64,000 bases of DNA from positions 58,574,020 to 58,638,019 of the forward strand of contig CM059567.1 of the NCBI GenBank assembly GCA_030386875.1. The letters are read 5' to 3'. The notes under the pieces are model-generated. The model was not told the DNA's origin. It did not search any database and worked only from the letters and a program-made list of their open reading frames with translations. This DNA comes from Morinoia aosen (taxonomy: Eukaryota; Arthropoda; Malacostraca; Amphipoda; Talitridae). Positions 20,766 to 58,479 of the stretch are shown here, in pieces. How positions within the stretch are numbered: position 1 is the first letter of the stretch; each line of letters starts with the position of its first letter. Both the position numbers and the translations under genes were made by a program.

Positions 20766-20839
20766 ATTTTTCATTGAGTTTCTACGATTTTACATTTTAC
20801 GTAGAGTGGATGACGGTGTTTGTTGTTTGTGCAGGCAAT

Positions 20840-21003
20840 ATGACGTGGGTCACAGCGGTGCTGTTGATGCTGCTGCTGTTGCTGCTGGTGCTGCTGCTGC
20901 TGCAGCCACAGCGTGCTCGGCTACCTCCCGGTCCGAAGGGCTTGCCACTTGTGGGGAACCTCTTCGATTTGCTCAAATACAACTCCATCGAGTACTTCAC
21001 CAT
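20840..21003 (+). CDS. P450-A exon 1 (anchor and PPGP hinge)
   Basis: Codons 1-54 plus two bases: Leu-rich membrane anchor, [17 protein letters not shown] hinge, then [12 protein letters not shown]. Donor AT|GTAAGA at 21004. A TTTGTGCAG just before the ATG could also be read as an acceptor, so a non-coding upstream exon is possible. Confidence 0.88.
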
Positions 21004-24000
21004 GTAAGAGCCCAGAGGCTTCGGATGACTTTTATAACTTTCCATTTATGAGATTTTATAACTTTTGATTTGTAAGATTTTATAATTTTTTATTTATCAG
21101 ATTTCATAACTTTAAACCTTTCGATTTATAAGAGAGATTTGATAACTTTGTAACTTTCGATTAATAGGATTCTATAAGCCTATACCTATCGATTTATAAG
21201 ATTTCATAACTTATAACTTCCGATTTATTTGATTTTGTAACTTTATAACTTTCGATTTATATGGTTTTGTACCTTCATAACTTTCAATTTATAAGACTTT
21301 ATAACTTTCGATGCAATTATTTTTTTTGAAAAAAACATGGTTTTGATGTTCTCTTAGCAGTTACTCTTAACACATGGTGGCACTTAATTACGGTAAATCC
21401 GCTAAGAATTCAGTTCTCGAATTTCCTTCTATCACGACTTTTAGAGTTCATGCACTTTTCCTACAATGCACGTTTTAGCTGTTCCGTCTATTCGCATGTA
21501 GAAAATTATACACGGATGTAATAAGTTATGTATTCCGAAGAATTCTGAAATTCCATAATATTTCGTTAATTAGAAGCATACTATTCCAACATATTTCGTT
21601 AATTGGAAGCATACTATTACAAGAGTACATAGTGCGAGGGTTTGACTTCTGGCCTGGCCAACAGTTTCTTTTCTAACTCGAATATTCCACAAGTAATTGA
21701 GTTTTCAATCTAACAAAGCAAATTAATTACCCTACCGAGGGCGTCGCTCTGTAGAGTTGGCGTGACAGAAAAACAATCATTAAGCGCCTATCAATGAGAG
21801 ATCTTACAAATATAACAGGAGCTTTCTTGTACTTTCTTTCGGCGTAGCTTACGATGGAGTGAAACTTACATGGTTTGGGTTTCATGGTTACGTTATTTTA
21901 AGCATCAATTATTCACATAAATGTTTTTGTGGCCTTCACGATTATTCACGGAAAACGGGTTTTGTGTATATGCGCACAAACTATCATATTTTGCTTAATA
22001 ATTAACGTAGAGTTTGCTCTCGCTTATATCACTACACCTTTTAAATATTGAAAAATATCACTCTTTTCTTAGACCGAATGATTTGCTGTTTGTTTGTACA
22101 TACACTGAAATGAGTATCTTTGTGTTTTGGCAAGAATAAAATGATTCATCGTACGTGTGGGCTTTGACTGGAACGAGTATCTTTATGTTTTGTCAAGAAT
22201 AAATTGTTCAACTGTGCGTGTGGATAAGGACTGAAACGAGTGATTGTATGTTGTGACGAGACTAAAATGGTTAGCAGTATGCTATTGCATTGACTGAAAC
22301 GGTGAGCAGTATGCTAATTGACTGAAAGCAGTATGTTAATGCAATGACTGAAACGAGTGATAGGATGTTGTGACGAGACTAAAATAATTTGCAGCACTTT
22401 AAAATGACTAAAATGATGAACAATATGTGTTAATGTATTAACTTAAATGATGAGCATTAATTATTTTAAATTCATTGACTAAAATGATGAGCAGAACCCA
22501 CCCACTCTAACTTTTTCGCCGCCTGCATACAAGTTTTTTGCCACCTAAGCGATTAAATCGCTCAGGCGGTGAAAAAGTTAGACTGGGTATGCTAGGACAT
22601 ACACTGAAAAGGTGATGTATGAAATTATTGACTTTTCATGACGTGCGCAGGCTGTCCAAAGAACACGGGCCGATCTACACGGTGCAGTTGGGGCTGCGTC
22701 CCGTGATCGTGCTGCAGTCGCGCCACTGGATGCAGCAGGCGTACGTCAGACGCGCCGACACCTTCACCGACCGGCCGCACGGCACCGTCCTGCACTTCAT
22801 CGCTGGTGGCAAAGGTAGTGCCAAGATCGTGAAACTTCTGCTCTAGTGGGGAATTAGTTTAAGCTGTGAATTTGTTGAGTTTCCCTCCAAAGTCTGAAGT
22901 GGTAGTGCAAAGGTAGTCTAATTCCTGCTCAAGTGGGGAGTTAGTTTTGCTAAAGTTAGTACTGGCAGTGCGAAAGTGGTGAAACTTCTACTCCAGTTGT
23001 AAATTATTTTTACTCGTTCCACAGCTAGTACTGGCAATTAGTGCTCTACTCAAAGTTAGTACAGGCAGAAACTCCTGCTCTAGCCGCGATTAGTGAATCA
23101 GTTTTGTTTGCTCTATAGTTAGTACTGGTAGTGCAAAAAATGATGAAACTCATACTCGTATTGTAGTTGCGATTTGAGTTTGATTCCCTTAAAGGTGATT
23201 TTCGTCTTAATTTTTTTGCTCTACGATTTATTTTTCGAGTTAATTTTACTTTACCCCACCTCATTTTCGACACAATTTTGTTACACTTCTCTCTTATTGA
23301 TGACTTAACTTGACTTTACTAACGCCTCACTCACTTTGCTTTACTAATGCCTCACAAACGACATAATCTTGCATTACTCTTATCTGGTTTGCAACTTAGC
23401 TTTGCTTCGCTCCGAACTCCTTTTAGGTAAATTTTTGCATCATACGTATTTCATCCTTACATCGAATAACATGGACTCAACAATTGTCACAACGCTACAG
23501 ACAAGAACTCTAACTTCACATCCTCGGGAGGCAGATTTTTTTCTTTTAGAATTTATAAAGCCTTTGAACGCTTCGGGACTCGTGTGGGCTTAGACTTCTT
23601 GTTTTTTTAATGCCGCCTATTCTTCACACTGCTGGTGCACTTTTGTGATACCCCTCAGATGTGGCGATGAGATGCCTAGGTGTAGTGATGTGGTGCCTAG
23701 GTGTGGTGATGTGATGTCCAGGTGTAATGATGTTATACCCAGATGTAGTGATGTAATACCCGGGTGTAATGATGTAATACCCAGGTGTAATGATGTGATG
23801 CCCAGGTGTGATATGATGCCCAGATGTAACGATGTAATACCCAGGTGTAGTGATGTGATGCCCAGGTGTGATGCGATGCCCGCAGGTGTGGTGATGTCAG
23901 AGGGCCAGACGTGGCGCGAGTCACGGCGGCTCCTGGCGCAGGTGCTCAAGGAGTTCGGGATGGGCAGCTCCAAAATTGAGGACTACATCGCGCTCGAGCT

Positions 24001-27000
24001 CAACGACTTCATAGACGCCCTCAAGGTGACGGCTTCTCCACCGGGCATCTATGATTTTAGCCGCCCCAGAGTGTATTGTTTCTGTATTCGGCAGCTATCA
24101 GAGCGACAGCTTCAGTGTTTAACTTTCGCGCCGAAGATCCAAAATTTTAACCGCCCAAGTATGTCTGTATATGCAATGTGGGCGGCTCAAATCATAGGTA
24201 CATAGACGGAGAAGTTATATGGAGGTTTTTTACATGATCGTGACTGAAAATTTGAAAAAAGGGGGGCCGTAAAAATAAATGTTAATTTAAAAATGAGTGA
24301 ATGGTTTTCAAGACTATTATTAAAAGTTCTCAAGAAATGAACTATAACTTGTTCTCAAAAAACAGACTACTAATAGTTCTCAAAAAATAGATTCTTAATA
24401 GTTCTCAAGAAATACACTATTAATAGTTCTCAAGAAACAGACCATTAATGATTCTCAAAAATAGACTATCAATAGATCTCAAAAAATAGACCATTAATAG
24501 TTTTCAAAAAATAGACTATCAATAGTTTTCAAAAATTGACTATCAATAGCTCTCAAGAAATAGATAAGTTCGCTCATGAGCGTCATTGACTAGCTGAAGT
24601 TGTGGCAGCGATCCTCTTGAGGAAATTTCTTTGACTTAGCATGCGATGCAGGCATTACCTGCACTTGTGTATCTAGAAAATGATTATATTTATTAAGCTA
24701 GTTTAGCCTTCTAGTGAAAAGATCTTGAAATGATGAATTTATTTCAAATATTTTCTTTATATAAGGAGAGTTAAGGTCAATGCTGCTTCTCTTTTTTGGT
24801 CTTCATTGTTTCACTATTTGTGTGGTTTTCTTCACGCTGGGGGGGTTTTCTTCATATTTTGGTTTTTCATAATATTGCGTGGTTTTATTCATATTGTGAG
24901 TCTGACTCTCAATATCAGCGAATTCGTTTTGAAGTTGAATCTTTTGCAGATTTCTCCTCATGAAGACAGGTCCATTATTTCTCAAGTCTGTGAATCATGA
25001 AACCTGTAGTAAAACACAACCCAATCTGATGCGTTCAAACAATAATTCCTACGTTTCTTTCATACACCAGAAAACTAGGATTAGTCAACTCGCTTTTTCA
25101 TGAGACGAAAATATGCACCCAGAAAGAGGTAGGGAAGCCTTTGGAGATTCATCCTGGGCTGGCCACGTCGGTCCTGAACATCGTGTGGCACATGTTTGCT
25201 GGCGAGCATTTCGAGGCCGGGGATCCTTTCCTGAGATGGATGGTCACTTCCATCGAGAGGACAGCGAACCTCATCAACCAGGGAGGCTTCCTCAACTTCG
25301 TGCCTTTCATCCAGTAAGTAACTGAGCACCAGAGGGCGGTGTAAGGTCTGCATGGCTGCCTGAAGTTATCTTGGTATGACTACCAGAAGACGTTGTAATC
25401 TTGGTATGATTGCCAGAAAAGGTGTAATCTTGGTTTGGTTGCCAGAAGACGTTGTAATCTCTGCATGGGAGCCAGAAGACGTTAATAATCTCGGTATGAC
25501 TGTCAGAAGACGTTGTAATCTTGGTATGATTGCCAGAAAACGTTGAAATCTCTTTATAAATGCCTGACGACGGAGACGTTGACGAAGACGCTGGAATGAC
25601 GAAGACGTATGACGAAGACCTTGTAATTTCCATATGACTGTCAGAAGTCGTTGTAAGTCATGAGGATCTGAGAGTATGTCCTTTGCATATTGCGCATGAC
25701 TGCATACATGCGACTCTATTTCAACTCGGTACCCGTTGCCAGAAGAACACTAGTCGAGATGGTTTTAAGGTACTTGTTCGAAATTTATCGGAAATGGAAT
25801 TGACGTAAGTTTAAATTTTCCGTACTCGTATAGCGCTAAATTCTGCGAGCAGAAGCCGATGCTGTTTACTGTACAGAAATTCAAAGGTCTTGAGTTAATA
25901 TTCTCACTCACCTGGTCCGAAAAACTAGCATTTCTCGTTTCAATAATAAAGCGGTAAGTGATCACTGGTTTTGAAAACTTATTAAGCCCAATAAATTCAT
26001 TTACGGAGTTAGAACAACTACTTTTTCGTTATGCTATGACCTAGAGTTGATACTCAGCATTTTTTACTTTAGCAGAGGAAAATTAGCTTCTCTTATTCAA
26101 GAACTGACCAGATTTCCCCATAAATATTTGTTATCCATTGCATGTAAAAATCCTTTGCCAAAATTTTCTCTGCCAAAATACTCAACTTTTCACGACCCTT
26201 GATCCGTTGTCTTCGAGCATGATAAACAAACTTCTTCGTAGACTAATAAACTCATTCCATCCTTCAAGGCGAAAGTAACCTTACTTTCTGATGATAAACT
26301 CAATCATTTCATCACGGCAAAAGTAACCTAAAGTTCCGATGATGAACGCAATCAATTCTTCACGGCAAAAGTGAATTAAATTTCTGATGATAAACGCATT
26401 TAATTCATCAGGGCGAAAGTACCCTAAATTTCTGACAATAAACGCAATCATTTCTTCACCTCTTAGGTCACCTGATTTTTTAATTCATGGCAGGTTCATC
26501 GGCACGTTCCTGCGACCGCGGGCGTTCCAGGTGCTCTTCAGCCTGATATACCGCATGCTTTACTTCAACAAAATCATCCGGCAGCACCGCAAGCAGCTGC
26601 ACGACCCGACCAAAAGTTTGGATCTCGTGTACGCCTTCCTGCAGGAGCAGGAGAAGCTCAGGAGGGCCAACCAACCTGAGGGAATTTTTACCGGTATGCA
26701 GTAGAGTAAATTTCCGCAGCAGGAATGAGTCATGACGGAATTTTTACCAGTACGAAATAGAGTAACTACGGTAACAAGAATTTTACCGGTATGAAACAGC
26801 TAGAGTAACTACTGCAGCAGGAACGAGTCATGTGGGATTTTTACCGGAATGAAATAGAGTAAGTACGGTAACAGGAAAGAGTCATGAGAGATTTTTTACC
26901 TGTATGAAGTAGAGTAACTACGGCAACAGGAACGAGTCTTGTGGAAATTTTACCGGTATGAAATAGAATAAATTACTGCAACAGGAACTAGTAACGCATG

Positions 27001-30000
27001 AAATTTTACCGGTATGAAATAGAATAAATTACTGCAACAGGAACTAGTAACGCATGAATTTTTACCGGTATGAAATAGAATAAATTACTGCAACAGGAAC
27101 TAGTTACGCATGAATTTTTACCGGTATGAAATAGAATAAATTACTGCAACAGGAACTAGTAACGCATGAAATTTTACCGGTATGAAATAGAATAAATTAC
27201 TGCAACAGGAACTAGTAACGCATGAATTTTTACCGGTATGAAATAGAATAAATTACTGCAACAGGAACTAGTAACGCATGAATTTTTACCGGTATGAAAT
27301 AGAATAAATTACTGCAACAGGAACTAGTTACGCATGAATTTTTACCGGTATGAAATAGAATAAATTACTGCAACAGGAACTAGTTACGCATGAATTTTTA
27401 CCGGTATGAAATAGAATAAATTACTGCAACAGGAACGAGTCATGTGGAGCATTCGCGGGCTGGGAGCCAAGTTTCGTATGGTTTAACAACAATCACGTGC
27501 AACAGAGTAGAAATGAAATAAAAAAACAACAATCACATGCAACAGAGTAGAAATGAAATAAAAAACAACAATCACATGCAACAGAGTAGAAATGAAATAA
27601 AAAACAACAATCACATGCAACAGAGTAGAAATGAAATAAAAAACAACAATCACATGCAACAGAGTAGAAATGAAATAAAAAACAACAATCACATGCAACA
27701 GAGTAGAAATTAAATAAAAAACAACAATCACATGCAACAGAGTAGAAATGAAATAAAAAACAACAATCACATGCAACAGAGTAGAAATGAAATAAAAAAA
27801 CAACAATCACATGCAAGTTGCAACAGAGTAGAAATGAAATAAAAAATGAAGTCCATCAAATGAGAAGTTATAAATTTCAGAGGCTTCTTAGCGTGAACGT
27901 TTTGACCGTAATTAACCTGACATGCACTATGTTCGGCTGATCGTGAAATTAGTTAAATTAAAATTCACAAGTTTGAACAAATAAAAGGTTTAAAGGTTAT
28001 TAATCTTAGTGGTTAATCTCAATGAAGTGGTTGAACACATTTGTACGATTTTACTATGCTTTTTTGGTCAACAGTCAAACGAATATCTATCAATTATTTT
28101 GGAGCTGTTTTTTAGTTGTTTTTTTTATTAATCATTAACATGTTCACTAAAAGCACAAAGCTCATTTGTTACTCGGTTTTCGAGAAGATGACTTCCAGGG
28201 TCTCAAACTTCATGTTCGAGTACCCAAATTTACGATAGGACTCAGCCATTTCAAAACATTCCTCTGAACTGATTTGATCTCCATTTTTCATCTTTTCAAT
28301 ATTTTCATTTCTTTCTTTGGCCAGTATCGAGTATTGAAGGCAGAAAAAAGACAAATCTGGTAATCCCTGTCATGACTTTAGACAGACAGAGACAAATGTG
28401 GTGATTCCTGCCCAGATTTTAGACAGAATAGGGCAAATCTGGTGATCCCTGCCAAGATTTTAGACAGAAAAGGACAAATCTGGTGATCACTACCCAGATT
28501 TTAGACAGAAAGAGACAAATGTAGTGATCCCTGCCTAGATTTTAGACAGAAAAGGACAAATGCGGTGATCACTCCCCAGATTTTAGACAGAAAAGACTAA
28601 TCATGTGATCCCTGCCCAGATTCGCAGCTACGGTGGCTGCTCAGTGACCTCTTCGTGGCGGGTCTGGACACGAGCGTCTCTGCCATGCGCTGGGCTTTTT
28701 TGTTCATCGTGAAGCATCCTCCCGTCGCCGGCAGGCTCTCCGCTGAGATCATGGAGGTGGTTGGCCGCGAACGCAGGCCCTGGTAACTTTTCGGTTGTTA
28801 TCGTTGCTTTTGGACCACGGGTCGTTCCCTCTTGGTTAAGATCTGGAGAGAATGGGGTTGTTTAGATAGAGGTTGCTTAGAGTGGGATTGCTGAACGCAG
28901 GCTTGAGTAAATCCTTCGTTTTTGTCGTTGCTTATAGATGGGGGAGTAGCTGCTCCTCGGTGGAGATTTGAAGAGAATGGAGTTTTTTTTCAATTATCTG
29001 CCTATTATAGATGATAGAAAGATCTCTCAAAGCTCTTACTTGAACCAGTCACTTTCAACATCATAGGATATTAGATATTTCTCTGAGTTTGCAATATTTT
29101 TATTAATAATAGCATTGGTGGTTATTGTGTTTGCCGAAAAATTTCCAAAATCTGCAAATCTTCACTCGCCGCATCGTAGATTTATCCTCGAGCTCACATG
29201 GTAGATTCATTGTGAGTCAAATGCTCTCAATATACTTTATATTCAACTCAATTTGAACTCATTCGAGTTTACGTGTCCTAGATTCCTCGCAGTGGTAAAC
29301 CATAGATTTATATTAGTTTCCAGCCCTTAGGTTGTTCTTATCTTACCCCACGAAATTTACTCATATTAGATCTAAATGTATTATATCGTTCATCTATCAC
29401 ACGAAGCTACCAACAAGGAACCATTTTGTTGCGACATTTTTGAAAGTCATTATACTTATTTTGCATTCTTTTTCTTGGACTTTTCATTTTCATAGAATGA
29501 CCGTTTTCCTGTTTTTATTTCAAACGTACTTTATTTATTTTCGATTCAAACACCTTAATTTCAATTTTGCCCCACACGTCCTAATTTTCATCCTGGCTCA
29601 CCCGCTCTAATTTTTATTCCGACTCACACGCTCCTAAATTTGTTTCTAGTTCACAAGCTCTAATACTAATTCTGGGTCATATGCCTTATAATTCTAATCC
29701 TGGCCTTCAAGTCCCCATTTTTAGTTCTGGTTCCACGCTATAGTTCTAATTTTAGTTCATGCTTGTCAGTTTAAGTTTAGTTCATATACCTAAAGTAATC
29801 TGGTCCACTTTTCTTTGCTTTAATTCCTCATAAGTCCTAGCTTTAATTCCTCATAAGTCCTAGCTTTAATTCCTGTTCACAAGCGATAGCTTTAATTACA
29901 GTTCAGAAGACCTTGCTTTAATTTCTCACAAGTCCTAGCTTGAATCCGGTTCAAAAATGGTAGCTTTAATTCCAGTTCAGAAGTCCTAACTTTAGTTCTT

Positions 30001-33000
30001 CACAATTCCTAGCCTCAATTTCGGTTCACACGTTCTATACAGTTTCTATTCCAGGTAACAAATCCTAGCATTAATCTTGAATCTCACGCCTTAGCTTTAA
30101 CTCATGCCCTCACACCTTAGTTTTAACTCAGATTCTGTGCGCATAAATTCATCAGACTACTTCTATATTGAAATTGAGAACATATTCAAATTATAGATGC
30201 GTTACACATCTATAAACTTGAACCTGCTCTCAACAAAAACATAAAAAACTTTTTTGCTGTAAAATTATTCACTATAACCGCAACTTAGAGGTTTTACACT
30301 TATCTTGTTGATCTTCAACTCAAGAAACACTACGTCGCGACTTTTTTGCTGCAAAATTAATTACTAGAATTTAACAACTTAGAGCTTTTACACTTATCTT
30401 GTTGATCTTCAACTCAAGAAACACTGCGTCACGATTTTTTTGCTGTCCAATTATTTACTACAGCCGCAACTTAGATGTATTACACTTATCTCATCGGACT
30501 TTAACTCAAGAAACACAACGTCACATTTCAGTTTGAGTGACCGGGACCACATGCCGTACATGGAGGCGTTCATCAGCGAGACGCTGCGGTACGCCGCTGT
30601 GGTACCTGTCATCTCCCACGCTCCTGCTCACGATACCACCCTCGGACCGTACCATGTGCCCGCCGGTACCATGATCATCACTAACCTGCACGGTGCACTT
30701 CATGATCCTGATGTGAGATCCCGGAGTTTCTGTAACATGACTCGATTTCTTTTTTGAATTGTGATTGTTTTGTCGTGACCCTTGAGTTTCTATTTCCATG
30801 ATTCTACCTTTTTATCGAACTGGGATTGTTGTTGTCTTGATTCTATGCTTACGTTAAATACATTAAATTGTGATTATTTTGTCGTAAGCCTTATATGCCT
30901 TACTCTACATTTCACTACGTTGTGATTATTTTGTCGTTAGCCTTGTGTATCTATTGGCCTGATTCTACACTTCTCTATATTGCGATTATTTTTTCGTACT
31001 GAGCTTAACGATCTGTGTTATCGAGTGTGCCTTGCGATTTGTGTCTTTAGTTTTTGGGATCTATTTTCGCTAGAATACGTGGAAACGACTACGATAGAAT
31101 CGAAGTAAAGTAAGAAAACCTCAAGTGTTTCACATTAAACGCGTAATTTTTACAATTACGTGCTTAGTGATATTAATGTGTTTTGATAATAATCTGTAAA
31201 ATCAAGAATAAGTAAATTTGGAATGAGCACTCAAAAAAATTAAAAATACCTGTAGCCTGCAGATGAAATAATTCTGAAAGAACTCCATAATAAACTTTCA
31301 ATGAACACAAAATAACACAACTATAGGGATGAAATTAATAAATAGGCCGACTCCGTAAAAAAATATCAACACTGCAGCAGGTGTACAATAAAATAGATAT
31401 AAAAAGACTGAGAACATATCCGATAATACGACTGCTGGAGTAGAATAAAATAAGTATAAAATACACAGGTGTGACATATAAAATATAAATATAAAAAGAC
31501 GCAGTGCACACATGCAATAACACAACCGCAGGTGTGGGAGCAACCGGAGGAGTTCCGACCTGAGCGATTCCTGACTCCGGACGGACACGTGAAGCGAGAC
31601 GAAAACCTCGTGCCTTTCTCAGTCGGTAAGACAATAAGACAGAAGATTATCAATAGTATAAATATTAGTGTTCAACCGCAGTCACTCCTTAAAGTTGGTT
31701 ATAGAGTTATAACAGCACGTGAAGCGTTGTATAGAGTTTTAAACGTGAAACGTGGTGAAAACTTCATACCTTTCTCGGTAGGCAAGACAATAAAATAGGA
31801 GTTTATTAGCACTTTGACTGCGACGTGAGTCACCGGTGGCTCACGGATGCTATTTTTATATTGCTGCTGACCGATCAGTAGTCACAAACTCAATTTTCAT
31901 AAATACTTAATCAAACGAAATGAAGGCACGATCCAGTTAATATTTGCTATTTTCAAAGTGGCTTACTACAATTGATTTTAAATTTAAGTTGAATATTGAA
32001 CTTCAGTTTTACCTGCCGCAGTCAAAGTGTTTGTAAAATGTTTGTTCAGCCCCAGTCACAACATCATGGACTATAGAGATGGTGAAGGTTGGTTAAATCA
32101 CCATTTTCTGACACGTCTGGCTAGCTAATTTTGAGTGTGGAGTTATCTGGTTTTATAATTCTATGGCTAAAATTGTTTAGTTTTATGGCTGAAATTATTT
32201 AGTTCTATAGCTGAAATTGTCTGGTTTCATCGTTTAAGCCTAAAATTGTATGGTTGTATGGCTAAAATTACTTAGTTCTATGGCTGAAATCGTTAAAGAC
32301 TCTATGGAAATCTTTGATAAAAAATTTCATAGAGATATTTCGTAAAACGGAAAGATTTATGCGGTCTGATGGGAAAGCAGAGTATGAGATAGGAAAGGAA
32401 ATTGTCTATTTATTTACGTTAAATGTGATACTCCAAGTGTGTGCTAAAGTGTAAGTTTTTCTAAAAGTGAACGCAGCGCAAGTTGTTTGCCAACTTTTCC
32501 TTTGTTGTTGTGTTATGAAGAATCTTCGCTTCACAGAAAATTCTTCCATACGTGAAAAATTATTGCCAGATCCATCAAAATTTTTCTTTGGAATGTAAAT
32601 TTTTTTCGTTCGTAAAAATATTCCAAAATTTTAAAGCAAAACCTAAATGTTGAAAAAAAAGTTTTCATGTCGAGAAAAATGTTTCTACGTCATCAGCAAA
32701 AGGATCATGAAAAATTTTGTCAGATCGTATTGTCAGATCGTGAAAAATGTTTCCACATTTTTTAAAATTTCTTCATTTCTCCATGTCGCCAAAATATTCT
32801 TAACAAACGATAAAGTTTCTCTGTTCCTGGCATTACTTTCGCACTTCATGGAAAAATTTTTCATTGAGCAACACATTTTTACCAATCATAAAGATGTGTT
32901 GTATCATCAAAAGTTTTCGTAACTAGAGAACTATGTTCTTTTTCTGAGAAAAGTTTTCCAGTCGTGATGAAAAATGATGCCCTTCGCTACGTATTCATTC

Positions 33001-34638: not shown

Positions 34639-34642
34639 TTAA

Positions 34643-36530: not shown

Positions 36531-36556
36531 TCTCAAGTATACTGAGCGTGAGTTCA

Positions 36557-45437: not shown

Positions 45438-45438
45438 A

Positions 45439-45475: not shown

Positions 45476-45499
45476 ACGTTACAAAGGTGATTTGAAACC

Positions 45500-45768
45500 A
45501 TGTTACACATAATCAGGAAATGGATTGTGATAGTGCTGTTGGTGACAGCATCTGTGTACGGTGTCCGATCTCAGTTAAGTCTGAGCCTTTTAGCTCATTA
45601 TGAAGTCTCTGCTCTGACCATCACGCTGAGTGTGGTGGTGACCTGCCTGGTGGTGATGCTGGTCTACCAACCTCCCCGTAAAGGCCTCCCTCCTGGCCCC
45701 GTAGGGCTACCTTTGGTGGGGAACCTCTTCGATCTCCTCTATGAAAACTCTACGGAATATTTCTTGAG
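45500..45768 (+). CDS. P450-B exon 1 (extended N-terminus)
   Basis: Encodes [20 protein letters not shown], a polar stretch, a second hydrophobic helix [19 protein letters not shown] and then [20 protein letters not shown]. Donor TTGAG|GTAATT. The second helix is in the position of the normal P450 anchor. Confidence 0.92.
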
Positions 45769-48700: not shown

Positions 48701-51700
48701 CCAACTCTTAATCATTTCTTTGTGCACAGACATAGCTCGCCAGGTAAAAAATACCCAACTTCTTAAACCAATATTTTTGTGTGCACAGACGAAGGTAAAC
48801 AAACCATACGACCCCCATCACGACATCTCGACCGCCGTGCTGAACATCGTATGGCACATGCTGGTGGGGGAGCAGTTCGAGATGGGGGACCCAACCCTGC
48901 ACTGGATCATCGACTCCCTGGAGCAGAACCTCAACTTGGTGGAGCAAGGGGGCTTCCTCAACTTCACCCCGCTGTTGCAGTGCGTGCTGAGCGAGGTTGT
49001 GGTGTGTGTGTGGGCTGTGTGTTGTGTATTGGCTGTGTTGTGTGTTGGTTGTGTGATGTGTGTTGTTTGTTGGCCGTATGTGGTGTCATGGCGCTGTGTG
49101 TTGACTGTGTGTCGTGTCATTGTGCTGTGTGTTGACTGTGTGGTCATATAGTGAACACTCTCAGTGACATTCTACCTCCTATATGAAAAAAAAACACTGT
49201 AACACTGTATGATGATAAAAAATCAATTTCAGGCAAAATTTTCAATCAAGATGTAAAATCATTAAAAGCTTCCCTTACGCTGTTATACAAGCACACATAA
49301 ATGTTAAGTAACCTCACGTAATCTGATAATAGTAGTCAGTGAAGTGTTTGTTTTTATCAAAGAACATTTCACGGGTGCAGCCACGAATGAAATACTTGTG
49401 CGTTCACAGCGACAGTCAGGCGGAATTGATGCCTCTGACGTCGTTTTTCTTCACTGTTATGATCTGCAAAATTCACTGTTATGATCTGCAATATTCACTG
49501 TTATGATCTGCAATATTCACTGTTATGATCTGCAATATTCACTGTTATGATCTGCAATATTCACTGTTATGATCTGCAATATTCACTGTTATGATCTGCA
49601 ATATTCTCTGTTATGATCTGCAATATTCACTGTTATGATCTGCAAAATTCACTGTTATGATCTGCAATATTCACTGTTATGATCTGCAATATTCACTGTT
49701 ATGATCTGCAATATTCACTGTTATGATCTGCAATATTCACTGTTATGATCTGCAATATTCACTGTTATGATCTGGAATATTCACTGTTATGATCTGCAAT
49801 ATTCACTGTTATGATCTGCAATATTCACTGTTATGATCTGCAATATTCACTGTTATGATCTGCAATATTCACTGTTATGATCTGTAATATTTACTGTTAT
49901 GATCTGCAATATTCACTGTTATGATCTGCAATATTCACTGTTATGATCTTCAATATTCACTGTTATGATCTTCAATATTCACTGTTATGATCTGCAATAT
50001 TCACTGTTATGATCTGCAATATTCACTGTTATTATCTGCAATATTCACTGTTATGATCTGCAATATTCACTGTTATGATCTGTAATATTCACTGTTATGA
50101 TCTGAGATATTCACTGTTATGATCTGCAATATTCACTGTTATGATCTGCAATATTCACTGTTATGATCTGCAATATTCACTGTTATGATCTGCAATATTC
50201 ACTGTTATGATCTGCAATATTCACTGTTATGATCTGCAATATTCACTGTTATGATCTGTAATATTCACTGTTATGATCTGCAATATTTACTGTTATGATC
50301 TGCAGTATTCACTGTTATGATCTGTAATATTCACTGTTATGATCTGCAATATTTACTGTAATGATCTGCAATATTCACTGTTATGATCTGCAATATTCAC
50401 TGTTATGATCTGCAATATTTACTGTTATGATCTGCAATATTTACTGTTATGATCTGCAATATTCACTGTTATGATCTGCAATATTCACTGTTATGATCTG
50501 CAATATTTACTGTTATGATCTGCAATAGTCACTGTTATGATCTGCAATATTTACTGTTATAATCTGCAATATTCACTGTTATGATCTGTAATATTCACTG
50601 TTATGATCTGCAATATTTACTGTTATGATCTGCAATATTTACTGTTATGATCTGCAATATTCACTGTTATGATCTGCAATATTCACTGTTATGATCTGCA
50701 ATATTTACTGTCATGATCTGCAATATTCACTGTTATGATCTGCAATATTCACTGTTATGATCTGTAATATTCACTGTTATGATCTGCAATATTTACTGTT
50801 ATGATCTGCAATATTTACTGTTATGATCTGCAATATTCACTGTTATGATCTGTAATATTCACTGTTATGATCTGCAATATTTACTGTTATGATCTGCAAT
50901 ATTTACTGTTATGATCTGCAATATTTACTGTTATGATCTGCAATATATATTGCTATGATCTGCAATATTTACTGTTATGATCTGCAATATATACTGCTAT
51001 GATCTGCAATATTTACTGTTATGATCTGCAATATTTACTGTTATGATCTGCAATATATACTGCTATGATCTGCGATAACTTCTGAAAGTTTTATTTTTAG
51101 AACGTCAGCATCTAAGTTTCATGAAAGTTTTATTTATGATACATCTGCATCTAAGTCTCATGAAAGTTTTATTCATAAAAGTACTTAGATACAGACGTTT
51201 CTTCGGGGAAAATTTTATTAATGAATCGTCTGCATCTAAGTACTTGATAATTCATATTAAAACCTTTTTTCGCATGGAACGGTGATTTCCGAAGCTTGAT
51301 ACAGGTTCTTCATGTGGAGTACAATCCAACAGTTGTAATTTTCTATTCAAAATTTCAGTGTATGAATTATCTATTTGATGTTAGGGTATATGGCTTACTC
51401 GAGTGCATCATATAAAAACGACGCTCACATCCATCCTCACCAAAAGAATAACGCGCACTTCTAAGTGCGTTGCTCGATGTTTTTTAAATTTTAGACGAGA
51501 GCACCTAATTAAGTAATTGGTACTAATTATTTAATTATTTCCAGATTTTTCGATCTGCTTTCCTAAAAAGTAAACCCAGGTTATATTTAGACATTTTCTA
51601 ACAAACTACACCCAAGTTATTTTTAGACATTTCTAAGAAAGAAAATCCAAAATATTTTTATACACTTCTTAAAAAGTAAACCCAAATTATTTTCAGATTC

Positions 51701-54700
51701 TTAGGCACTTTCCTCCAACCGAAGGCCTTCAAGGTGCTGTTCAGCATGATCCACCGCATCAGGTACTTCTACAAGCTCATCAAGAAGCACAACGAGAAAC
51801 TAGACGACCCAACGCGTGGCCATGACCTCATCTTTGCCTTCTTGGAGGAGCAGAGAAAGCTGAAAAAACTCGGGCAACCAATCGAAAATTTCACAGGTAC
51901 CAAATCTATTTGTTTTTGCCTCAACTACCTTATCTAATCTAGTCCTTAGTCCACCATATGTGAGCCAATTATATGGTAATCTACTGATTGTAGCTTGTTC
52001 ATAGTGCATTCACCCGTATAATTATTATCTTGTTTTGACCGTGTTTATCATTTGCCTATATCAGTAGTGCGTCCATCAAATTAGCAGCGTATTTTTACCA
52101 TACGCTTATTGCCTTTTTATCAATGTTTTTTCAGAGCGTTGCTCAATAGCAGAACATAGCTGAATACTTTTATCTTTTTTAAAGTTACTTTACACGCTTA
52201 CACTGAATTGGTTTGTTAAGGCCTGCGAAAATTCCGCTGAACGCTTCTTGTATATCATTTGGTGAAGGATGCTGATGCATTTAAACCAAGTAATCAAGAG
52301 AAAGATTGTAAAATGAATACAGGAAATTTTTATTGGAGCTATAATTACACAGAAGTTCAATCAATTTATACCTCTCGGATATCATTTTGCTTAAGAATAG
52401 CTGACAATTTCGTATGCTCGAGCAAATACTGTATATTGTGATGTAAATCTACGAATACGAAGAAATATATGCACATCTTTTCCTCTATCGTGGAAGATTC
52501 ACATCAATTTAATTCACATTGATTGATATTCAGGGGATTTTAAATAACAAAATTAAGTTTTTCTAATTCATGTCTCTCGTCCAGCACATCGCAGCGAAAT
52601 TTGTAAAACGTAATGGTGGCCAAATGGGAGGTATCCTAACTCTTCCCCTAACAACTCATTAGAAACTCATCAAACAACTCATTAAATTATTCACTAAGCA
52701 ACTCTGAACAACTCAACAAATAACATGCCAAACAACTCACCAACCTACTCATTAAACAACTCACCAAATATCTCATTAACGGAGCTGATAAACGTATCTT
52801 GGGCCGTTTGCTCGGTCGAATGTGGTGAACATCGCGTCTTTTGGCGTTTGCCTAGTCGACAGGGGTGAGAAGTGCATCTTGGGCGGATTCCACGATCAAC
52901 GGAGCTGAAATACGCGTTTAACTCACCATACAACACGTTAAACTACTCACTATGCACCCCACAGACTCGCAACTGGTGTGGCTGCTGAGCGATCTGTTCA
53001 TCGTGGGCCTGGACACGACGGTCACCACGCTGCGCTGGAGCATCCTTTTCTTCGTCACCAGACCTAAGATTTGTGATAAACTTTTCGCCGAAATTGAGTC
53101 TGTCATTGGGACAGAGCGCAAGCCGTGGTGAGGTTTCTTGCTTCTAAATTACTGGTGATTATGATTTTAGGGTAAATTCAAGCATGAAAGTGAGCATTTA
53201 TATTTGATGCTGTTGATGTTAGGATTAATCGGGTATTTTTACATTGCCATTGATGATGAGGTTAAAGCACAGCGACGACGTGCTGAGAGAATTACGAGTT
53301 TTAGAAAATTTAGTAATTATAAATGATTTTGGTTCTAATGAAGCATAAATTTTTTGTGGAAATATGCTCTCTAATTTTTTAATCTGTTTTTGTGTTCCTA
53401 GGGAAAAAAGGGAGTTGGCATAAGCATTTTAATGACACCAGACGCTCTCACATAGCATTCAATCGTGCAAAGATTTATTACAATTTGATGTTACTAATAG
53501 ATCTTCACATACCATGGGAATTATTAACCAAGAGCTCGGTTAAACTTATGCAGTACATTACCAAGACCTGAATGAGTAATTTTAAACATGCCTACAAAAG
53601 AGGCATCGTATTATTCAACTATCAGTACATGTTTGTCCTCTCGCCATTGCAATATTCTCACATTTCTTTCAGGTTCATGAGTAGTGCCAGAATAAGATCG
53701 GCACTTTTTAGTACGACTGGAACTAAAACCTTTGCTATAGAAGTATCATTATCGATCACTTCGTTTATTCGAGTACGTTACACTTCCAATGGTTTTCAGC
53801 ATCTTAGTCTGAAAAAGCATATCAAGCGTGTTCATGAGATTGAAGCTTTTCTTTTGAGTTGTTACGTGTTCAGCTTGAACAACCGTGAGCTCGCTTCCTT
53901 TCTAATGAGTTATTATGTGTTCAGCTTGAACGACCGAGACAGCATGCCGTACATGGAGGCGTTCATAAACGAAGTGTTGCGGTTCTCCACCATCACGCCC
54001 CTCGCTGCCCACTCCACGCCTGAGGACACCAAGCTCGGCGACTATCTCATCCCCAAGCAGACTCTGATCATCGGCAACCTCTATGGCATCCATCACGACC
54101 CTAAGGTACTTCAGGGCAAAAGATAAAATCCTAAGGTACTTCAGGGTAAAAGATAAAACCCTTAGGTACTTCAGGGTGAAGGTAAAACCCTAAGGTACTT
54201 CTGAGTAAAAAGTAAAACACTTAGGTACTTCAGAGTAAAAGATAAAACCCTAAGGTACTTCAGGGTAAAAGATAAAACCCTAAGGTACATCAGGGTAAAA
54301 TATAAAACCCTTTGGCACCATTTCAGGGTAAAAGATAAACTCTTAGGCGGCATTTCAGTCAAAAAGATGACTTTATGAGGCTTTCCGTCTTTCAATTCGG
54401 CTCTGAAAGAAATGGTTTTCCGTATAAAAGATTTTTGCTGGATGAGTAAGCTTGATGAAGCTTTCCGTCTCTCAATCGGGTTCTGAAAAGAAAGTTTTCC
54501 AAATACGCGATTCTTGTAGGAAAAGTAAACTTTGTGAGGCTTTCCGTCTTTCAATTAGGTTCTGGAAAAATGGTTTTCCATAAAATAGATTCTTGCAGGA
54601 AAAGTAAACTTTATGAAGCTACAGTCTTTCAATCGGGCTCTGAAAAAAGGGTTGCCAAAAAACAATTCTTACAGGAAAAGTGAACTTCATCAGGTTTCTC

Positions 54701-57700
54701 GATTTGAAAGGCGCTTTAATAAGAAGGATTGTCATATAAGAGAATTTTTAGGAAAAGTAAACTTCAATAAGCATCCTGTCGTTCAATGGAGAACTGATAA
54801 GGTTTGCCAAATAAGAGAATCTTGCAGGTGGGACGGGAAAAAATGGTAAAACTTTGTTAGCTGAGGGAATCAGAAGTGATGAATTGATCTATCAACCTGG
54901 CATGTAATTAAGAGTGAAATTTGTAACTACGCAGTATGTGTTGTTCGCTAAAGAACAAACGGCGAGATGTAAAACAAATTTAGATAATGAAAAGGGCAAT
55001 TTAGGGTTTCTGGAATGTGATACGGGAATACGTCATATGTTCGAAGGCATTAGAAGTGACATCATTCGAAGTCTTCCTGCAACAACAATTAAGTATATAG
55101 GGGCTCAAAAATACAGAAAATATAGAGAATATCTGAAGTGTCGAGTGACAGGTAACAATAGAGTAAAATTCAACTGGTAATTTCAGTGAAAAAGGCTTAA
55201 ATCAAAGCAGGCAACTGAAATCCGCTGAAAAATCTCAATGTACACATGCACATTGAAAAAATTTAAATTCTCCATAAAAGTCATTTTTTTAGACCAAGCA
55301 GAAGCCACCATTTCTTGCCATACGGCTTAAAAATGAACTTCGTAAAAGCGATGTGTTACTGCACACTTTAGGGCTCGCTTTTTTACAAGTTATATTACTA
55401 TTAAGGTTCACTTCAGTTAAGAAATAACTTCATTAAATGTCGCTGAACTTATTGGGGCCCAGAAATAGCTATACTCAAATGCGTCACTTGTAATAGACTT
55501 AAGAAACAATCTACTGCTGTTTCGCTTGTGGTAAATAAATTGTTGAAATTGTTTAAATTGTATAAATTGTTTAAACTGCTTAAATTGCTTCTTTTATTTT
55601 TCTGATACTTTTTGTTTGATTGCAGGTGTGGGGAGACCCTGAGGAGTTCAGACCAGAGCGCTTCCTGGGAGATGACGGCAAAGCGATGCTCAAGCACTTG
55701 GTGCCGTTCTCAGTCGGTGGGTATTGCATGTTCAGTAGAATGGGGCAACGAGAATGAACAGAATAAATTATTCTCAGATTGTCATCCAAGTTTTACGCTG
55801 TGTCTACCCCTCAAGTTCCTTCCCGTTGCTACCCAAGTCTCATGCCGTAGCTACCCGAGTCTCATGCCGTAGCTACCCATGTCCCATGCCGTAGCTATTC
55901 AAGTCTCATGCCGTAGCTACCCAAGTCTCATGCCGTAGCTACCCAAGTCTCATGCCGTAGCTACCCATGTCCCATGCCGTAGCTACTCAAGTCTCATGCC
56001 GTAGCTACCCAAGTCTCATGACGTAGCTACCCAAGTCCCATACCGTAGCTACCCATGTCCCATGCCGTAGCTACCCAAGTCTCATGCCGTAGCTATTCAA
56101 GTCTCATGCCGTAGCTACCCATGTCCCATGCCGTAGCTACCCATGTCCCATGCCGTAGCTACCCATGTCCCACGCCGTAGCTACCCAAGTCTCATGCCGT
56201 TGCTACCCAAGTCTCATGCCTTAGCTACCCAAGTCTCACGCTGTAGCTACCCAAGTCTCATGCCGTAGCTACCCATGTCCCATGCCGCTGCTACTCAAGT
56301 CTCATGCCGTAGCTACCCAAGTCTCATGCCGTAGCTACCCAAGTCCCATACCGTAGCTACCCATGTCCCATGCCCTAGCTACCCAAGTCTCATGCCGTAG
56401 CTATTCAAGTCTCATGCCGTAGCTACCAATGTCCCATGCCGTTGGTACCCAAGTCTCATGCCGTAGCTACCCAAGCCTCATGCCGTAGCTACCCAGGTCT
56501 CATACCGTAGCTACCCACGTCTCATGCCGTAGCTACCCATGTCCCATGCCGTAGCTACTCAAGTCCCATGCCGTAGCTACCCAAGTCTCATGCCGTAGCT
56601 ACCCAAGTCTCATGCCGTAGCTACCCAAGTCTCATGCCGTAGCTACTCAAGTCTCATGCCGTAGCTACCCAAGTCTCATGCCGTAGCTACCCAAGTCTCA
56701 TGCCGTAGCTACCCAAGTCTCATGCCATTGCTACCCAAGTCTCATGCCGTAGCTACCCAAGTCTCATGCCATTGCTACCCAAGTCTCATGCCGTAGCTAC
56801 CCATGTCCGATGCCGTAGCTACCCAAGTCTCATGCCGTAGCTACCAATGTCCCATGCCGTAGCTACCCATGTCCGATGCCGTAGCTACCCAAGTCTCATG
56901 CCGTAGCTACCAATGTCCCATGCCGTAGCTACCCATGTCCCATGCCGTAGCTACCCAAGTCTCATGATGTAGCCACCCAAGTCTCATGCCGTAGCTACCC
57001 AAGTCTCATGCCGTAGCCACCCATATCCCATGCCGTTGCTACCCAAGTCTCATGCCGTAGCTACCCAAGTCATGCCGTAGCTACCCAAGTCATGCCGTAG
57101 CTACCCAAGTCTCATGTCGTAGCTACTCAAGTCTCATGACGTGGGTATCTTGTCTACTTGTATAACAAGTACCATGTCTACTTGTATAACAAATACCTTG
57201 TCTACTTGTGTAACGAGTATCGTGTTTACCTTGAGCCTAACGTCAGTATTATCTCTTTGTTAAGACTCTCCGCACCATGGAAGATAACTGCAAGTTTAAC
57301 CGACAATGCATTCGTAAAAATCAGTTTTAATTGAACTATTCAAATACGGATCCTTTCTGTAGTTCATTGTTTCGGTTTTTTTATTCTTTCTTTTATTCGG
57401 TTCTACGCATCCTGCCAGAATAATAAAACGCATCCTGGTTTTTATGCTCATTGTTCGGATTATTGAAATAAATCTCAGAATAACTTTCAAATAAATTTGA
57501 ATCAATATCAAAGAGCTGCAATTCAAAAGTAGTAATTTGAATTCTTTATATTAAGTGTTCAAGTATTTGGTTTGCATACAAGGTGTGAGTAAAGTTGGGC
57601 AAACCAACCGAGCAAGCAACTAACCGCGTATTACTATACTGAGAAATTTTGTGTTGCATCTTAGTTAAACTCATTATCTTCACGCACAAGTAGGATCAAT

Positions 57701-58479
57701 TACAGACAAGCAACATGCATTTCAAGTAACATGCCCTGCGGAGTCACTTCTCCAAAATTCATTCAAGAGAAAGCGATTTGATGAAAATTTCCAAATAATG
57801 TAGAAATTCAACGCAAAGGCTGTTTAATTCAGTGCTAAAGAGCTATATTCCAATTAGCAATCTGAACTTTCAGATATATTGTGAACTGATCAAATGAAAC
57901 GAACATGCATGATCAAATACCACATATTATCCGTAATCTAATACAACCTTTAATACATTTCTGAGAAATGTTTGAATTTATTTTCGCTTCCATTAATTAT
58001 TCAAATGACTTTAATGATTGTCTTTATCCCCTCCAAGACGTAGGAACTGCTTGGGAGACACGCTAGCTAGATTTCAACTTTAACAATTATCTTCATCACC
58101 TCCAGGTCGCAGGAACTGCTTGGAAGAAACGCTGGCTAGATTTCTGATTTTAAGATTGTCTACATCCTCTATACGTCACAGAAACTGTATGGGAAAAACG
58201 CTAGCTAGACTTCAACTTTAACAATTATCTTCATCACCTCCAGGTCGCAGAAACTGCTTGGGAGAAGCGCTAGCCAGGACGGAGATCTTCCTGTTCTTGA
58301 CATCCATTCTGCAGACGTTCAGTTTCGAGGCAGAGGGCGAGCTGCCGTCCGAGAAATGCAAACACGGAATTCTGCTGCACCCTGTCCACCACAACGTCGT
58401 GCTCAGGCGTCGCGGGGATGCTAAGCTAAACAAATCTTCATCTCTCAACGGTGTTCAGACGCCGGTTCAAGTTTCATAG
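45500..58479 (+). CDS. Cytochrome P450, clan-2-like, complete nine-exon gene (P450-B)
   Basis: Tandem paralogue of the gene at 20840, with the same predicted role of ER monooxygenase of unknown substrate. Exons: 45500-45768, 46739-46902, 47720-47859, 48789-48979, 51697-51896, 52965-53127, 53925-54105, 55626-55716, 58244-58479 (1635 nt, 544 residues). All junctions are GT-AG and the frame is unbroken. Landmarks: two hydrophobic segments (about 7-20 and 38-56), PPGP 64-67, C-helix W154...R158, I-helix VGLDTT 335-340, K-helix E392-R395, PERF 446-449, heme loop FSVGRRNCLG with Cys ~471. Exons 2-7 match P450-A in length and phase; exon 8 is one codon shorter. The N-terminus is ~35 residues longer than usual. 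AATAAA occurs 42 nt after the stop. Confidence 0.94.
45769..46399. other. P450-B intron 1, 5' part
   Basis: AT-rich unique sequence, no repeat or coding signal. Confidence 0.5.
46400..46470. mobile_element. Hairpin MITE-like element, copy 6 (truncated, P450-B intron 1)
   Basis: Starts ACCCAGTCTAACTTTTCGCC and has the CGCCACCTGCAT variant. It runs through the central hairpin (AATTAAATCTCTTGGGCGCC) and stops there; the distal inverted end is missing. It lies in the same intron as copy 4 in P450-A. Confidence 0.8.
46480..46735. repeat. ~24-bp array (CACCACAGCCACTAAGCACC)n before exon 2
   Basis: About ten units of CCAGCCCACACCACAGCCAC plus TAAGCA, running up to the exon 2 acceptor (CACTAAGTAGCGC...CCCTCAG). 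Confidence 0.9.
46739..46902 (+). CDS. P450-B exon 2
   Basis: Encodes [40 protein letters not shown], then [14 protein letters not shown]. Donor GCAGAG|GTGCTC. 164 nt. Confidence 0.94.
46903..47719. other. P450-B intron 2
   Basis: Unique AT-rich DNA with a short (AACTTG)n run near 47600. No array at either splice site. Confidence 0.5.
47720..47859 (+). CDS. P450-B exon 3 (C-helix)
   Basis: Encodes [40 protein letters not shown], then LMDTLH. Acceptor CTCCCCAG|GCATTG, donor CTGCAT|GTGCGT. WKDAR supplies the heme-propionate contacts. Confidence 0.95.
47860..48419. other. P450-B intron 3, 5' part
   Basis: Loose repeats of TTTAGCATTTGT/TTTTCTCGG to ~48060, then unique DNA. Confidence 0.45.
48420..48788. 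repeat. Acceptor/exon-4-derived array, ~58-bp unit
   Basis: Six units of ATTTCTTTGTGCACAG|ACA...GGTAAAAAA...CCAACTCTTTTAACCA end in the true acceptor GTGTGCACAG|ACGAAGGTAAAC. One early unit at 48505-48533 (CCAAGGTAAATAAGCTTTAC, GAGCCCCAT) copies ~28 bases of the exon 4 start (CGAAGGTAAACAAACCATAC, GACCCCCAT). Confidence 0.88.
48789..48979 (+). CDS. P450-B exon 4
   Basis: Encodes [40 protein letters not shown], then [20 protein letters not shown]. Donor TTGCA|GTGCGT. 191 nt. Confidence 0.94.
48980..49145. repeat. TG-rich simple repeat from the exon 4 donor
   Basis: (TGTGTTG/GGCTGTGTTG)n starts ~20 bp after the donor, with units such as TGTGTTGACTGTGTGTCGTG toward the 3' end. Confidence 0.8.
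49146..49445. other. P450-B intron 4, unique stretch
   Basis: No feature recognised. Confidence 0.5.
49446..51075. repeat. Large minisatellite, 22-bp unit, ~73 copies
   Basis: ATTCACTGTTATGATCTGCA plus AT, over 1.6 kb in intron 4 of P450-B. Units in the 5' half are nearly all ATTCACTG. ATTTACTG variants increase toward the 3' end and the terminal units become ATATACTGCTATGATCTGC, giving a polarity of divergence. Confidence 0.97.
51076..51535. other. P450-B intron 4, 3' unique stretch
   Basis: Three diverged copies of GAAAGTTTTATTTATRA...CATCTAAGT at 51085-51240, otherwise unique. Confidence 0.5.
51536..51696. repeat. Acceptor-derived array before exon 5
   Basis: Units CCAG|ATTTTTCGATCTGCTTTCCT (51542), TTTAG|ACATTTTCTAAC and TTTAG|ACATTTCTAAGAAAG are spaced by AAAAAGTAAACCCAAGTTAT. 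They precede the true TTTTCAG|ATTCTTAGGCACTTTCCT. The first unit copies about 18 bases of exon start. Confidence 0.83.
51697..51896 (+). CDS. P450-B exon 5
   Basis: Encodes [40 protein letters not shown], then [20 protein letters not shown]. Donor ACAG|GTACCA. 200 nt. Confidence 0.95.
51897..52620. other. P450-B intron 5, 5' part
   Basis: AT-rich unique sequence with no coding or repeat signal. Confidence 0.5.
52640..52962. repeat. Degenerate (CAACTCATTAAA)n array before exon 6
   Basis: Irregular CAACTCACCAAA-type units at 52660-52780 and 52918-52950, around three ~60-bp units with AACGGAGCTGATAAACGYRT and GGGCCGTTTGCTCGGTCGA. Confidence 0.7.
52965..53127 (+). CDS. P450-B exon 6 (I-helix)
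   Basis: Encodes [40 protein letters not shown], then [20 protein letters not shown] (335-340) has Val in place of the usual Ala but keeps Gly-x-Asp-Thr. Donor CCGTG|GTGAGG. Confidence 0.95.
53128..53850. other. P450-B intron 6
   Basis: Unique AT-rich DNA. The open frame from 53572 into exon 7 is carried by the duplicated acceptor region and is not an independent gene. Confidence 0.5.
53851..53924 (+). repeat. 51-bp tandem duplication of the exon 7 acceptor
   Basis: TTACGTGTTCAG|CTTGAACAACCG (junction at 53874) and the true TTATGTGTTCAG|CTTGAACGACCG (53925). They are 51 nt apart, i.e. 17 codons, and in frame without stops. Confidence 0.9.
53925..54105 (+). CDS. P450-B exon 7 (K-helix)
   Basis: Encodes [40 protein letters not shown], then [24 protein letters not shown] (392-395) is the ExxR motif. 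Donor CCCTAAG|GTACTT. 181 nt. Confidence 0.95.
54096..54345. repeat. Donor-derived minisatellite, exon 7 end plus GTACTT, ~31-bp unit
   Basis: CCCTAAG|GTACTTCAGGGTA plus AAAGATAAAA occurs at the true donor and about seven more times. The last seven exon bases are part of the unit. Variants include CCCTTAG|GTACTT and CCCTAAG|GTACATC. Confidence 0.95.
54346..54835. repeat. ~62-bp array in intron 7
   Basis: About seven degenerate units with GAGGCTTTCCGTCTTTCAAT, a GGTTCTGAAAA block and ATTCTTGCAGGAAAAGTAAA. Several carry a TTGCAG acceptor-like site. Confidence 0.85.
54836..55435. other. P450-B intron 7, unique part
   Basis: AT-rich, no feature recognised. Confidence 0.45.
55436..55560 (+). mobile_element. 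3' end fragment of the non-LTR family in P450-B intron 7
   Basis: GTCGCTGAACTTATTGGGGC, TAGCTATACTCAAATG and GTGGTAAATAAATTGTT align with the last ~125 bp of the element at 39840, plus strand. It is followed by an expanded (AAATTGTTT)n tail to ~55590, about 30 bp before exon 8. Confidence 0.85.
55626..55716 (+). CDS. P450-B exon 8 (PERF)
   Basis: Encodes [20 protein letters not shown] then [10 protein letters not shown] plus the first base of Gly. Acceptor GATTGCAG|GTGTGG, donor GTCG|GTGGGT. 91 nt. Confidence 0.94.
55790..57140. repeat. Large minisatellite, 22-bp unit, ~60 copies
   Basis: GCTACCCAAGTCTCATGCCG plus TA in intron 8 of P450-B. Two main variants, CCCAAGTCTCATG and CCCATGTCCCATG, are interspersed in short runs along the array. 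Confidence 0.97.
57141..58020. other. P450-B intron 8, rest
   Basis: 57145-57235 has three ~29-bp units with TTGTCTACTTGTATAACAA. The remainder is unique AT-rich DNA. Confidence 0.55.
58025..58243 (+). pseudogene. Three tandem copies of the exon 9 start (heme-loop), 69-bp period
   Basis: The heme-cysteine codon and its context recur at 58048, 58117 and 58186 before the true one at 58255, each exactly 69 nt (23 codons) apart. Copy 1 reads [10 protein letters not shown] with its acceptor AG lost. Copy 2 reads [11 protein letters not shown] with an intact CTCCAG acceptor at 58105, but the loop Gly has become Glu and a stop follows at ~58217. Copy 3 reads [11 protein letters not shown] with no AG. 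Confidence 0.92.
58244..58479 (+). CDS. P450-B exon 9 (heme cysteine, C-terminus)
   Basis: Encodes [40 protein letters not shown], then [18 protein letters not shown] and a Ser/Lys-rich tail ending TAG 58477-58479. Cys ~471 is the axial heme ligand. The tail is eight residues longer than in P450-A. Confidence 0.96.

Follow-up and report, generated by a model that had tools for sequence, protein, structure and literature searches.

Junction-spanning tandem-repeat arrays near exon edges in cytochrome P450 genes of the amphipod Morinoia aosen

A stretch of 64,000 nucleotides of the Morinoia aosen genome (G000:C12:58574020-58638019; hereafter the window) carries two paralogous cytochrome P450 genes, P450-A and P450-B, in which tandem-repeat arrays extend across exon-intron junctions. 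In these two and eight further P450 genes of the same genome, array edges lie near splice junctions in excess of random placement, and one homologous donor site is occupied repeatedly. Arrays reported by Tandem Repeats Finder (TRF) are present in 50 of the 90 introns of the ten genes, giving 100 outermost edges. Thirty-nine of these edges lie at most 60 bp from a junction or inside an exon, compared with 11.4±2.7 under rigid random placement (0 of 1000 placements). That arrays favour exon edges in these clusters is supported by our data.

The genome comprises 1.99 Gb in 29 contigs. Of 17 hemocyanin-domain matches in it, fourteen are full-length and lie in two clusters, which would suit an arthropod and perhaps a crustacean. 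We built the models of P450-A and P450-B by hand and checked them with a purpose-written spliced protein-to-DNA aligner. The eight further genes were G1 to G5 on contig C4 and H1 to H3 on contig C15 (200 kb taken), and the complete set contained 180 junctions (32 in A and B, 148 in G and H). Arrays were detected in two ways, by TRF and by an ungapped search for copies of the 30-base window around each junction; in the latter, the 30-mer included 10 exon bases, a match required at least 20 of 30 identical bases and the search range was 700 bp. Three P450 genes (60 kb) and one chaperonin gene (T-complex zeta type) served as an array-poor comparison. The sample thus represents one gene family and one chaperonin gene, includes related genes and has homology-based exon ends; it comes from a single assembly, in which array lengths may be imperfect. 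Several significance tests were made, and the P values are uncorrected. All internal sites of the G and H models are GT or AG except one GC donor. This site, the G2 exon 7 donor (L012:9582, C4:4869582), belongs to a GC-AG intron (GAG/GCGAGT, the slash marking the exon end), and the modelled paralogues have GT there.

The first-pass annotation of the window had proposed two nine-exon P450 genes, and both were recovered with open coding sequences (CDS):

20840 to 33890, forward strand: P450-A, nine exons, 502 residues, CDS of 1509 bp, open; exons 20840-21003, 22651-22814, 23886-24025, 25123-25313, 26494-26693, 28620-28782, 30532-30712, 31532-31625 and 33679-33890.
45500 to 58479, forward strand: P450-B, nine exons, 544 residues, CDS of 1635 bp, open; exons 45500-45768, 46739-46902, 47720-47859, 48789-48979, 51697-51896, 52965-53127, 53925-54105, 55626-55716 and 58244-58479.

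Spliced alignment of each gene with the protein of the other returned the identical 16 internal splice sites (eight introns) per gene. Three exon matches to Cytochrome P450 (PF00067) exceeded the Pfam cut-off in the window, two in A (C12:58604540 and 58607694) and one in B (C12:58627939). A and B agree in all eight intron positions and phases, and we therefore conclude that the splicing positions did not move. The open reading frames and the conserved intron positions are compatible with undisturbed mRNA splicing.

The arrays and duplications at the junctions of the two genes, all on the forward strand, are as follows:

22814 to 23181, forward: A exon 2 donor, weak diverged array from the donor, absent from the TRF output.
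23666 to 23897, forward: A exon 3 acceptor, 21-bp array whose final unit holds the acceptor and 12 exon bases (TRF).
26686 to 27440, forward: A exon 5 donor, 56-bp array from the last 8 exon bases (12 by ungapped extension), donor included.
28345 to 28622, forward: A exon 6 acceptor, 41-bp array, 3 bases into the exon.
30248 to 30524, forward: A exon 7 acceptor, 94-bp array that stops 7 bp before the acceptor.
31587 to 31806, forward: A exon 8 donor, 39 exon and 25 intron bases with a single copy 156 bp downstream at 78% identity.
33512 to 33688, forward: A exon 9 acceptor, 59-bp array, 10 bases into the exon.
48654 to 48766, forward: B exon 4 acceptor, 55-bp array that stops 22 bp before the acceptor.
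51565 to 51697, forward: B exon 5 acceptor, 35-bp array ending at the first base of the exon (1 base in).
53848 to 53936, forward: B exon 7 acceptor, one 51-bp duplication with the acceptor and 12 exon bases (26/30).
54098 to 54368, forward: B exon 7 donor, 30-bp array from 8 bases before the exon end, donor included.
58008 to 58274, forward: B exon 9 acceptor, 69-bp array, 31 bases into the exon; in a gapped alignment, 75 exon bases at 79%.

Arrays occupy much of their host introns. TRF arrays that hold a junction together with at least 3 exon bases number six in A and B and five in the G and H genes. With the 30-mer test, 11 of the 32 junctions of A and B are copied in the adjacent intron, most clearly at A exon 3 acceptor, A exon 5 donor, A exon 9 acceptor, B exon 7 donor and B exon 9 acceptor. 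The last two are the best examples overall, with units of 30 bp at the B exon 7 donor (CCTAAG/GTACTTCAGGG...) and of 69 bp at the B exon 9 acceptor. Nine junctions had been listed earlier as having exon bases in the repeat unit. Those of A exons 3, 5 and 9 and of B exon 7 (both sides) and exon 9 hold, and A exon 8 donor is an additional case; A exon 2 donor and the acceptors of B exons 4 and 5 are weak. The copies at A exon 2 donor are 67-81% alike, with one exon base in three of the four copies and 5 in one copy; at B exon 4 acceptor, 30 exon bases are matched at 75% by a diverged copy that lies 254-335 bp upstream. Two acceptors of A had further been described as the last unit of their arrays, which is correct for exon 6 but not for exon 7. 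Independent origin of the arrays fits the exon 9 acceptor, which A and B both have in an array and where the units (59 versus 69 bp) are unrelated. Their description as recent need not apply everywhere, since close paralogues among the G and H genes share arrays.

Two further repeat features were seen in these genes. At 20644-20899, a 137-bp duplication (93% matches, 1.9 copies) extends over the start-codon region in exon 1 of P450-A and the adjoining 5' flank, which places a second similar ATG context upstream. P450-B introns 4 and 8 contain two long 22-bp arrays at 49450-51077 (74 copies) and 55823-57142 (60 copies).

How often chance alone would place copies at junctions depends on the density of arrays, which cover 0.24 of the bases of the window (TRF); 0.37 of the intron 30-mers of A and B have a copy on a given side. 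We took intron windows without a copy on one side and determined the fraction with a copy on the other side (terminal-unit null). For A and B this fraction was 12.3%, corresponding to 3.9 of 32 junctions, and 11 were seen (P=0.001). Blind seeding accordingly predicts about 4 of 32, so that the earlier statement that ordinary minisatellites would not repeatedly include exon edges was too strong. With stricter matching, 6 of 32 junctions were positive at ≥22/30 (P=0.09) and 6 of 32 at ≥24/30 (P=0.03). In the G and H genes, 18 of 148 junctions were positive versus 7.4 expected (P=0.0005). Both sides contributed (13/90 acceptors and 16/90 donors in the ten genes at 20/30 with 10 exon bases). Over the 180 junctions, the ratio of observed to expected was 2.6, 2.5, 2.5, 2.5, 2.2, 2.1 and 0.8 at thresholds of 20, 22, 24, 26, 27, 28 and 29 of 30. 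Exon interiors had copies in only 2 of 167 windows at ≥20/30, a near-absence that is as purging predicts. The G5 exon 2 and exon 3 acceptors and the H2/H3 exon 2 donor carry older duplications, in which 56-71 exon bases are copied at 70-84% identity.

The array edges gave a similar picture. In a seed simulation, edges entering an exon by at least 3 bp were expected 5.0±2.1 times and were seen 11 times (P=0.013), and edges at -3 to 60 bp were expected 10.6±2.7 times and were seen 28 times (0 of 400 simulations). Limited to units of at least 15 bp, 34 edges lay within 60 bp compared with 10.3 expected. The claim that array edges touch junctions above shuffled placement therefore stands, also outside the window (G and H genes alone, units ≥15 bp: 19 edges versus 6.6±2.0), and with one gene per close pair 12 edges were seen versus 4.0±1.7.

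The enriched zone is broad. Only 2 edges lie between 60 and 100 bp from a junction, and the 39 near edges divide into 19 on the donor and 20 on the acceptor side; both ends of the array region are near a junction in 8 of the 50 array introns, one end in 23 and none in 19. At distances of more than 130 bp from the junction, the density of outermost copies is mostly 2-6% (9% at 200 bp). It amounts to 11-20% in the last 60 bp of the intron and 13% at the junction, and falls to 6% at 20 bp and <2% at 30 bp inside the exon. The density is thus elevated in the flanking intron for about 100 bp and declines smoothly into the exon with no added peak at the junction. We conclude that there is an enriched zone around the junction rather than a spike at the AG/GT splice site. 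A process starting at the splice site itself, as the first-pass annotation had suggested, is not supported, given a zone of this width and equal donor and acceptor sides.

One donor is occupied repeatedly. In seven of the eight G and H genes, an array starts at the donor that follows GYxIPK-type codons, with units of 20 bp in G1 and G2 (14-15 exon bases), 30 bp in G3 and G4 (15 exon bases) and 20 bp in the H genes. In G1 (ACACCATACCCAAG) and in G3 and G4 (TACTCTATTCCCAAG), the exonic bases of the array consensus are identical to the end of the exon in the same gene, which fits arrays that either arose repeatedly from the living exon copy or were renewed by it. Close paralogues (G1/G2, G3/G4 and H2/H3) have the same array at the same junction, and its length differs within the two G pairs (259 and 458 bp in G1/G2; 537 and 1437 bp in G3/G4). 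The GYxIPK donor has seen either several array births or one array lineage repeatedly renewed from the exon. At the G4 exon 8 donor (L018:2094-3530) we counted ~46 copies of the 30-bp donor unit, which would encode repeats such as VRAVWYSIPK if read through.

We tentatively read the arrays, with somewhat less than even confidence, as junction-spanning minisatellites of the amphioxus 'mirage' type, produced by ordinary tandem duplication that is tolerated and maintained by the preserved exon copy. Tandem duplications of ~20-150 bp would arise throughout the introns of a repeat-rich genome. A duplication that straddles a junction, an anatomy seen directly in the arrays, would be nearly harmless: the outermost splice-site copy, joined to the intact exon, would give an unchanged mRNA, and the remaining copies would become intron. 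Such use of the outermost site would explain tolerance but not excess. Selection would, however, keep the exon copy recognizable, so that it could pair with decayed copies and, through further duplication, restore the array. Arrays free in the intron lack a fixed template and would fade; junction arrays would be long-lived, accumulate at exon edges and lengthen introns. We prefer the preserved exon copy as the source of the excess, but exon edges that are mutational hotspots may also account for it, alone or together with that copy. The presence of the excess at 20/30 to 28/30 but not at 29/30, together with the occupation of the same donor in divergent paralogues, leans towards persistence.

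Several observations weigh against this reading. At 29/30 identity the excess is gone (3 versus 3.9 expected, few cases). Of the 39 near edges, 24 end 1-60 bp short of the junction and have no exon copy in the TRF report. In G2, exon end and array are one base apart (CCTAAG versus CCCAAG, the others being equal), and the likeness of the H units to their exon ends is loose (identity 0.59 in H2 and 0.77 in H1 when GT is left out). The four array-poor genes are without significant excess.

A bolder extension holds that in this lineage exon edges are permanent templates from which minisatellites are repeatedly re-born, that junctions are the main growth points of introns and that some, such as the P450 GYxIPK donor, are occupied successively across gene duplications. 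We regard this extension as fairly unlikely.

Among the alternatives, junction-targeted mutation fares best, although we place it on the unlikely side. Exon-intron boundaries would then be hotspots of tandem duplication, caused by transcription or R-loops, by steps in base composition or by short direct repeats between coding and splice-consensus sequence. The excess on donor and acceptor sides within ~60 bp, which includes arrays without exon bases, agrees with such hotspots, and at the array-bearing GYxIPK donor of G1, GGTAC occurs in the exon (GGGGTAC) and again across the donor (AAG/GTAC). The excess of arrays stopping short of the exon and this direct repeat lean towards mutation. The same donor in K5, a gene of the array-poor comparison (GAG/GTGGG), and in G5 (AAG/GTTAC) has no array. 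However, the H genes have arrays at this donor with GTGTG donors, and the G2 donor reads AAG/GTGCTT; the direct-repeat cases are few and were noticed after the fact. The broad enrichment on both sides without a peak at the junction and the lack of excess at 29/30 also speak against targeting.

Chance plus tolerance, in which introns are filled with arrays, some junctions are included inevitably and exon edges are not favoured, is decidedly unlikely in our view. If a junction is expected inside an array at the coverage rate of whole arrays (coverage null, 36.8% for A and B), 11.8 of the 32 junctions of A and B are predicted and 11 were seen; over all 180 junctions, ~40 are predicted and 29 were seen. 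Coverage is roughly level across the intron (0.19-0.33, with 0.20 at 5-30 bp) and drops to 0.13 at junctions, which are thus found inside arrays more rarely than bases in mid-intron. We did not adopt the coverage null, which is too generous given that exons cannot be filled by arrays, and the counts of exon-entering and near-junction edges exceed simulated and rigid placement.

The array-poor comparison agrees with chance. Edge excess was not significant in the three P450 genes (2 versus 1.3) or in the chaperonin gene (1 versus 0.2), nor in G5 alone (1 versus 0.6). Two of the 39 retained junctions of the three P450 genes had copies versus 1.4 expected, and none of the 18 chaperonin junctions did. 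Before counting, we excluded both sites of the K5 exon near 4485-4669, site 836 of K5 and the first donor of K19. The K19 acceptor, which the aligner placed at 4571, inside an array, was retained though doubtful and accounts for one of the two positives. In K19 (L031:4506-4634), a 15-bp array reaches or crosses the acceptor of a CYP4-like exon (clan assigned by eye), and comparison with K6 suggests an exon start near 4624. Near-full-length single-frame matches of TCP1/Cpn60 type were noted six times on C27 (56.8-71.8 Mb) and once on C26 (20.82 Mb), and multi-exon chaperonin genes lie elsewhere.

It is improbable that the arrays are selected for, with repeated splice sites backing up splicing or yielding isoforms such as in-frame 10-residue inserts in G3 and G4. 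The GT is conserved among units at 0.97-1.00 in six of the seven donor arrays, compared with 0.89-0.93 at other positions, and the 30-bp unit of G3 and G4 keeps the reading frame, which is open for 573 and 1239 bp past the donor. Many non-GT positions are, however, equally conserved, and H1 shows the opposite (GT 0.79). The pooled identity of copies, 0.938 at GT/AG versus 0.778 elsewhere, partly reflects the way in which the copies were selected; when the array consensus is used, the two values differ little, and in H1 their order is reversed. Codon positions in the in-frame G3 and G4 arrays differ in no consistent way in conservation, and the unit is a multiple of three in 5 of the 11 spanning TRF arrays and not in 6 (by eye). 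Insertion of mobile or introner-like elements at splice sites is very improbable. In its favour, a G1 array probe matched arrays elsewhere in the genome at ~67-76% identity, but these matches may reflect periodicity alone. Against it, the examined units differ by junction (close paralogues excepted) and contain the local exon end, and the intron positions are common to A and B.

Between P450-A and P450-B, two long open frames on the minus strand (40230-43317; 559 and 494 residues) are of non-LTR (long terminal repeat) retrotransposon type by eye.

These data touch on how introns lengthen and how splicing selects one site among similar neighbours. Should minisatellites preferentially arise or find refuge at exon edges, introns would lengthen from their ends in a simple way that can be counted. 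Each array would then be a natural splicing experiment, with ~50 similar donors lined up in the largest cases and only the first expected to be used, and amphioxus 'mirages' would be a wider feature of repeat-rich animal genomes.

Related structures have been described in other systems. Human genes in segmental duplications contain variable internal tandem repeats, partly at exon-intron boundaries (PMC2812944); they share with our arrays minisatellites of ~30-bp units in recently duplicated genes. The human repeats, which have transcript support, alter exons or give rise to introns, whereas in M. aosen intron positions are conserved and the arrays are known from genome sequence alone. A review describes intron gain through tandem duplication of a segment that contains AGGT (PMC3443670). 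There, too, splice-site sequence is duplicated, and the coding sequence stays the same as long as the extra copy is removed by the spliceosome. Unlike in that process, existing introns grow here and no new intron arises, as the eight positions and phases in which A and B agree reveal no intron absent from a paralogue. Sequence shared by many introns, as in introners, was not found in the junction arrays examined, for which no genome-wide search per unit was made. In the open-access literature searched, we recognized no genome-wide test of array edges against splice sites, and the parts seen of PMC6823432 and PMC7536079 are not precedents.

The closest likeness is to the amphioxus 'mirages', minisatellite-like tandem repeats spanning exon-intron boundaries in Adh3, troponin C, globins and PGBD5 (PMC3087553, PMC3902484). 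As far as these sources describe them, the mirages affect both 5' and 3' boundaries, have units of ~10-160 bp, occur in several genes per genome and retain intact AG/GT in many copies, all of which resembles our arrays. RT-PCR (reverse transcription PCR) and Adh3 data are cited there as suggesting normal splicing, and haplotype or somatic length variation is also cited. The tandem units of the M. aosen arrays likewise combine exon and intron bases from a single junction (TRF: six arrays in A and B, five in G and H), and such arrays occur on donor and acceptor sides and at several junctions in the genome. They differ in belonging to an arthropod and to the P450 family, and in having been measured against placement nulls. 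The structure is thus already known from amphioxus, and what is added here is that its excess over chance placement is made measurable.

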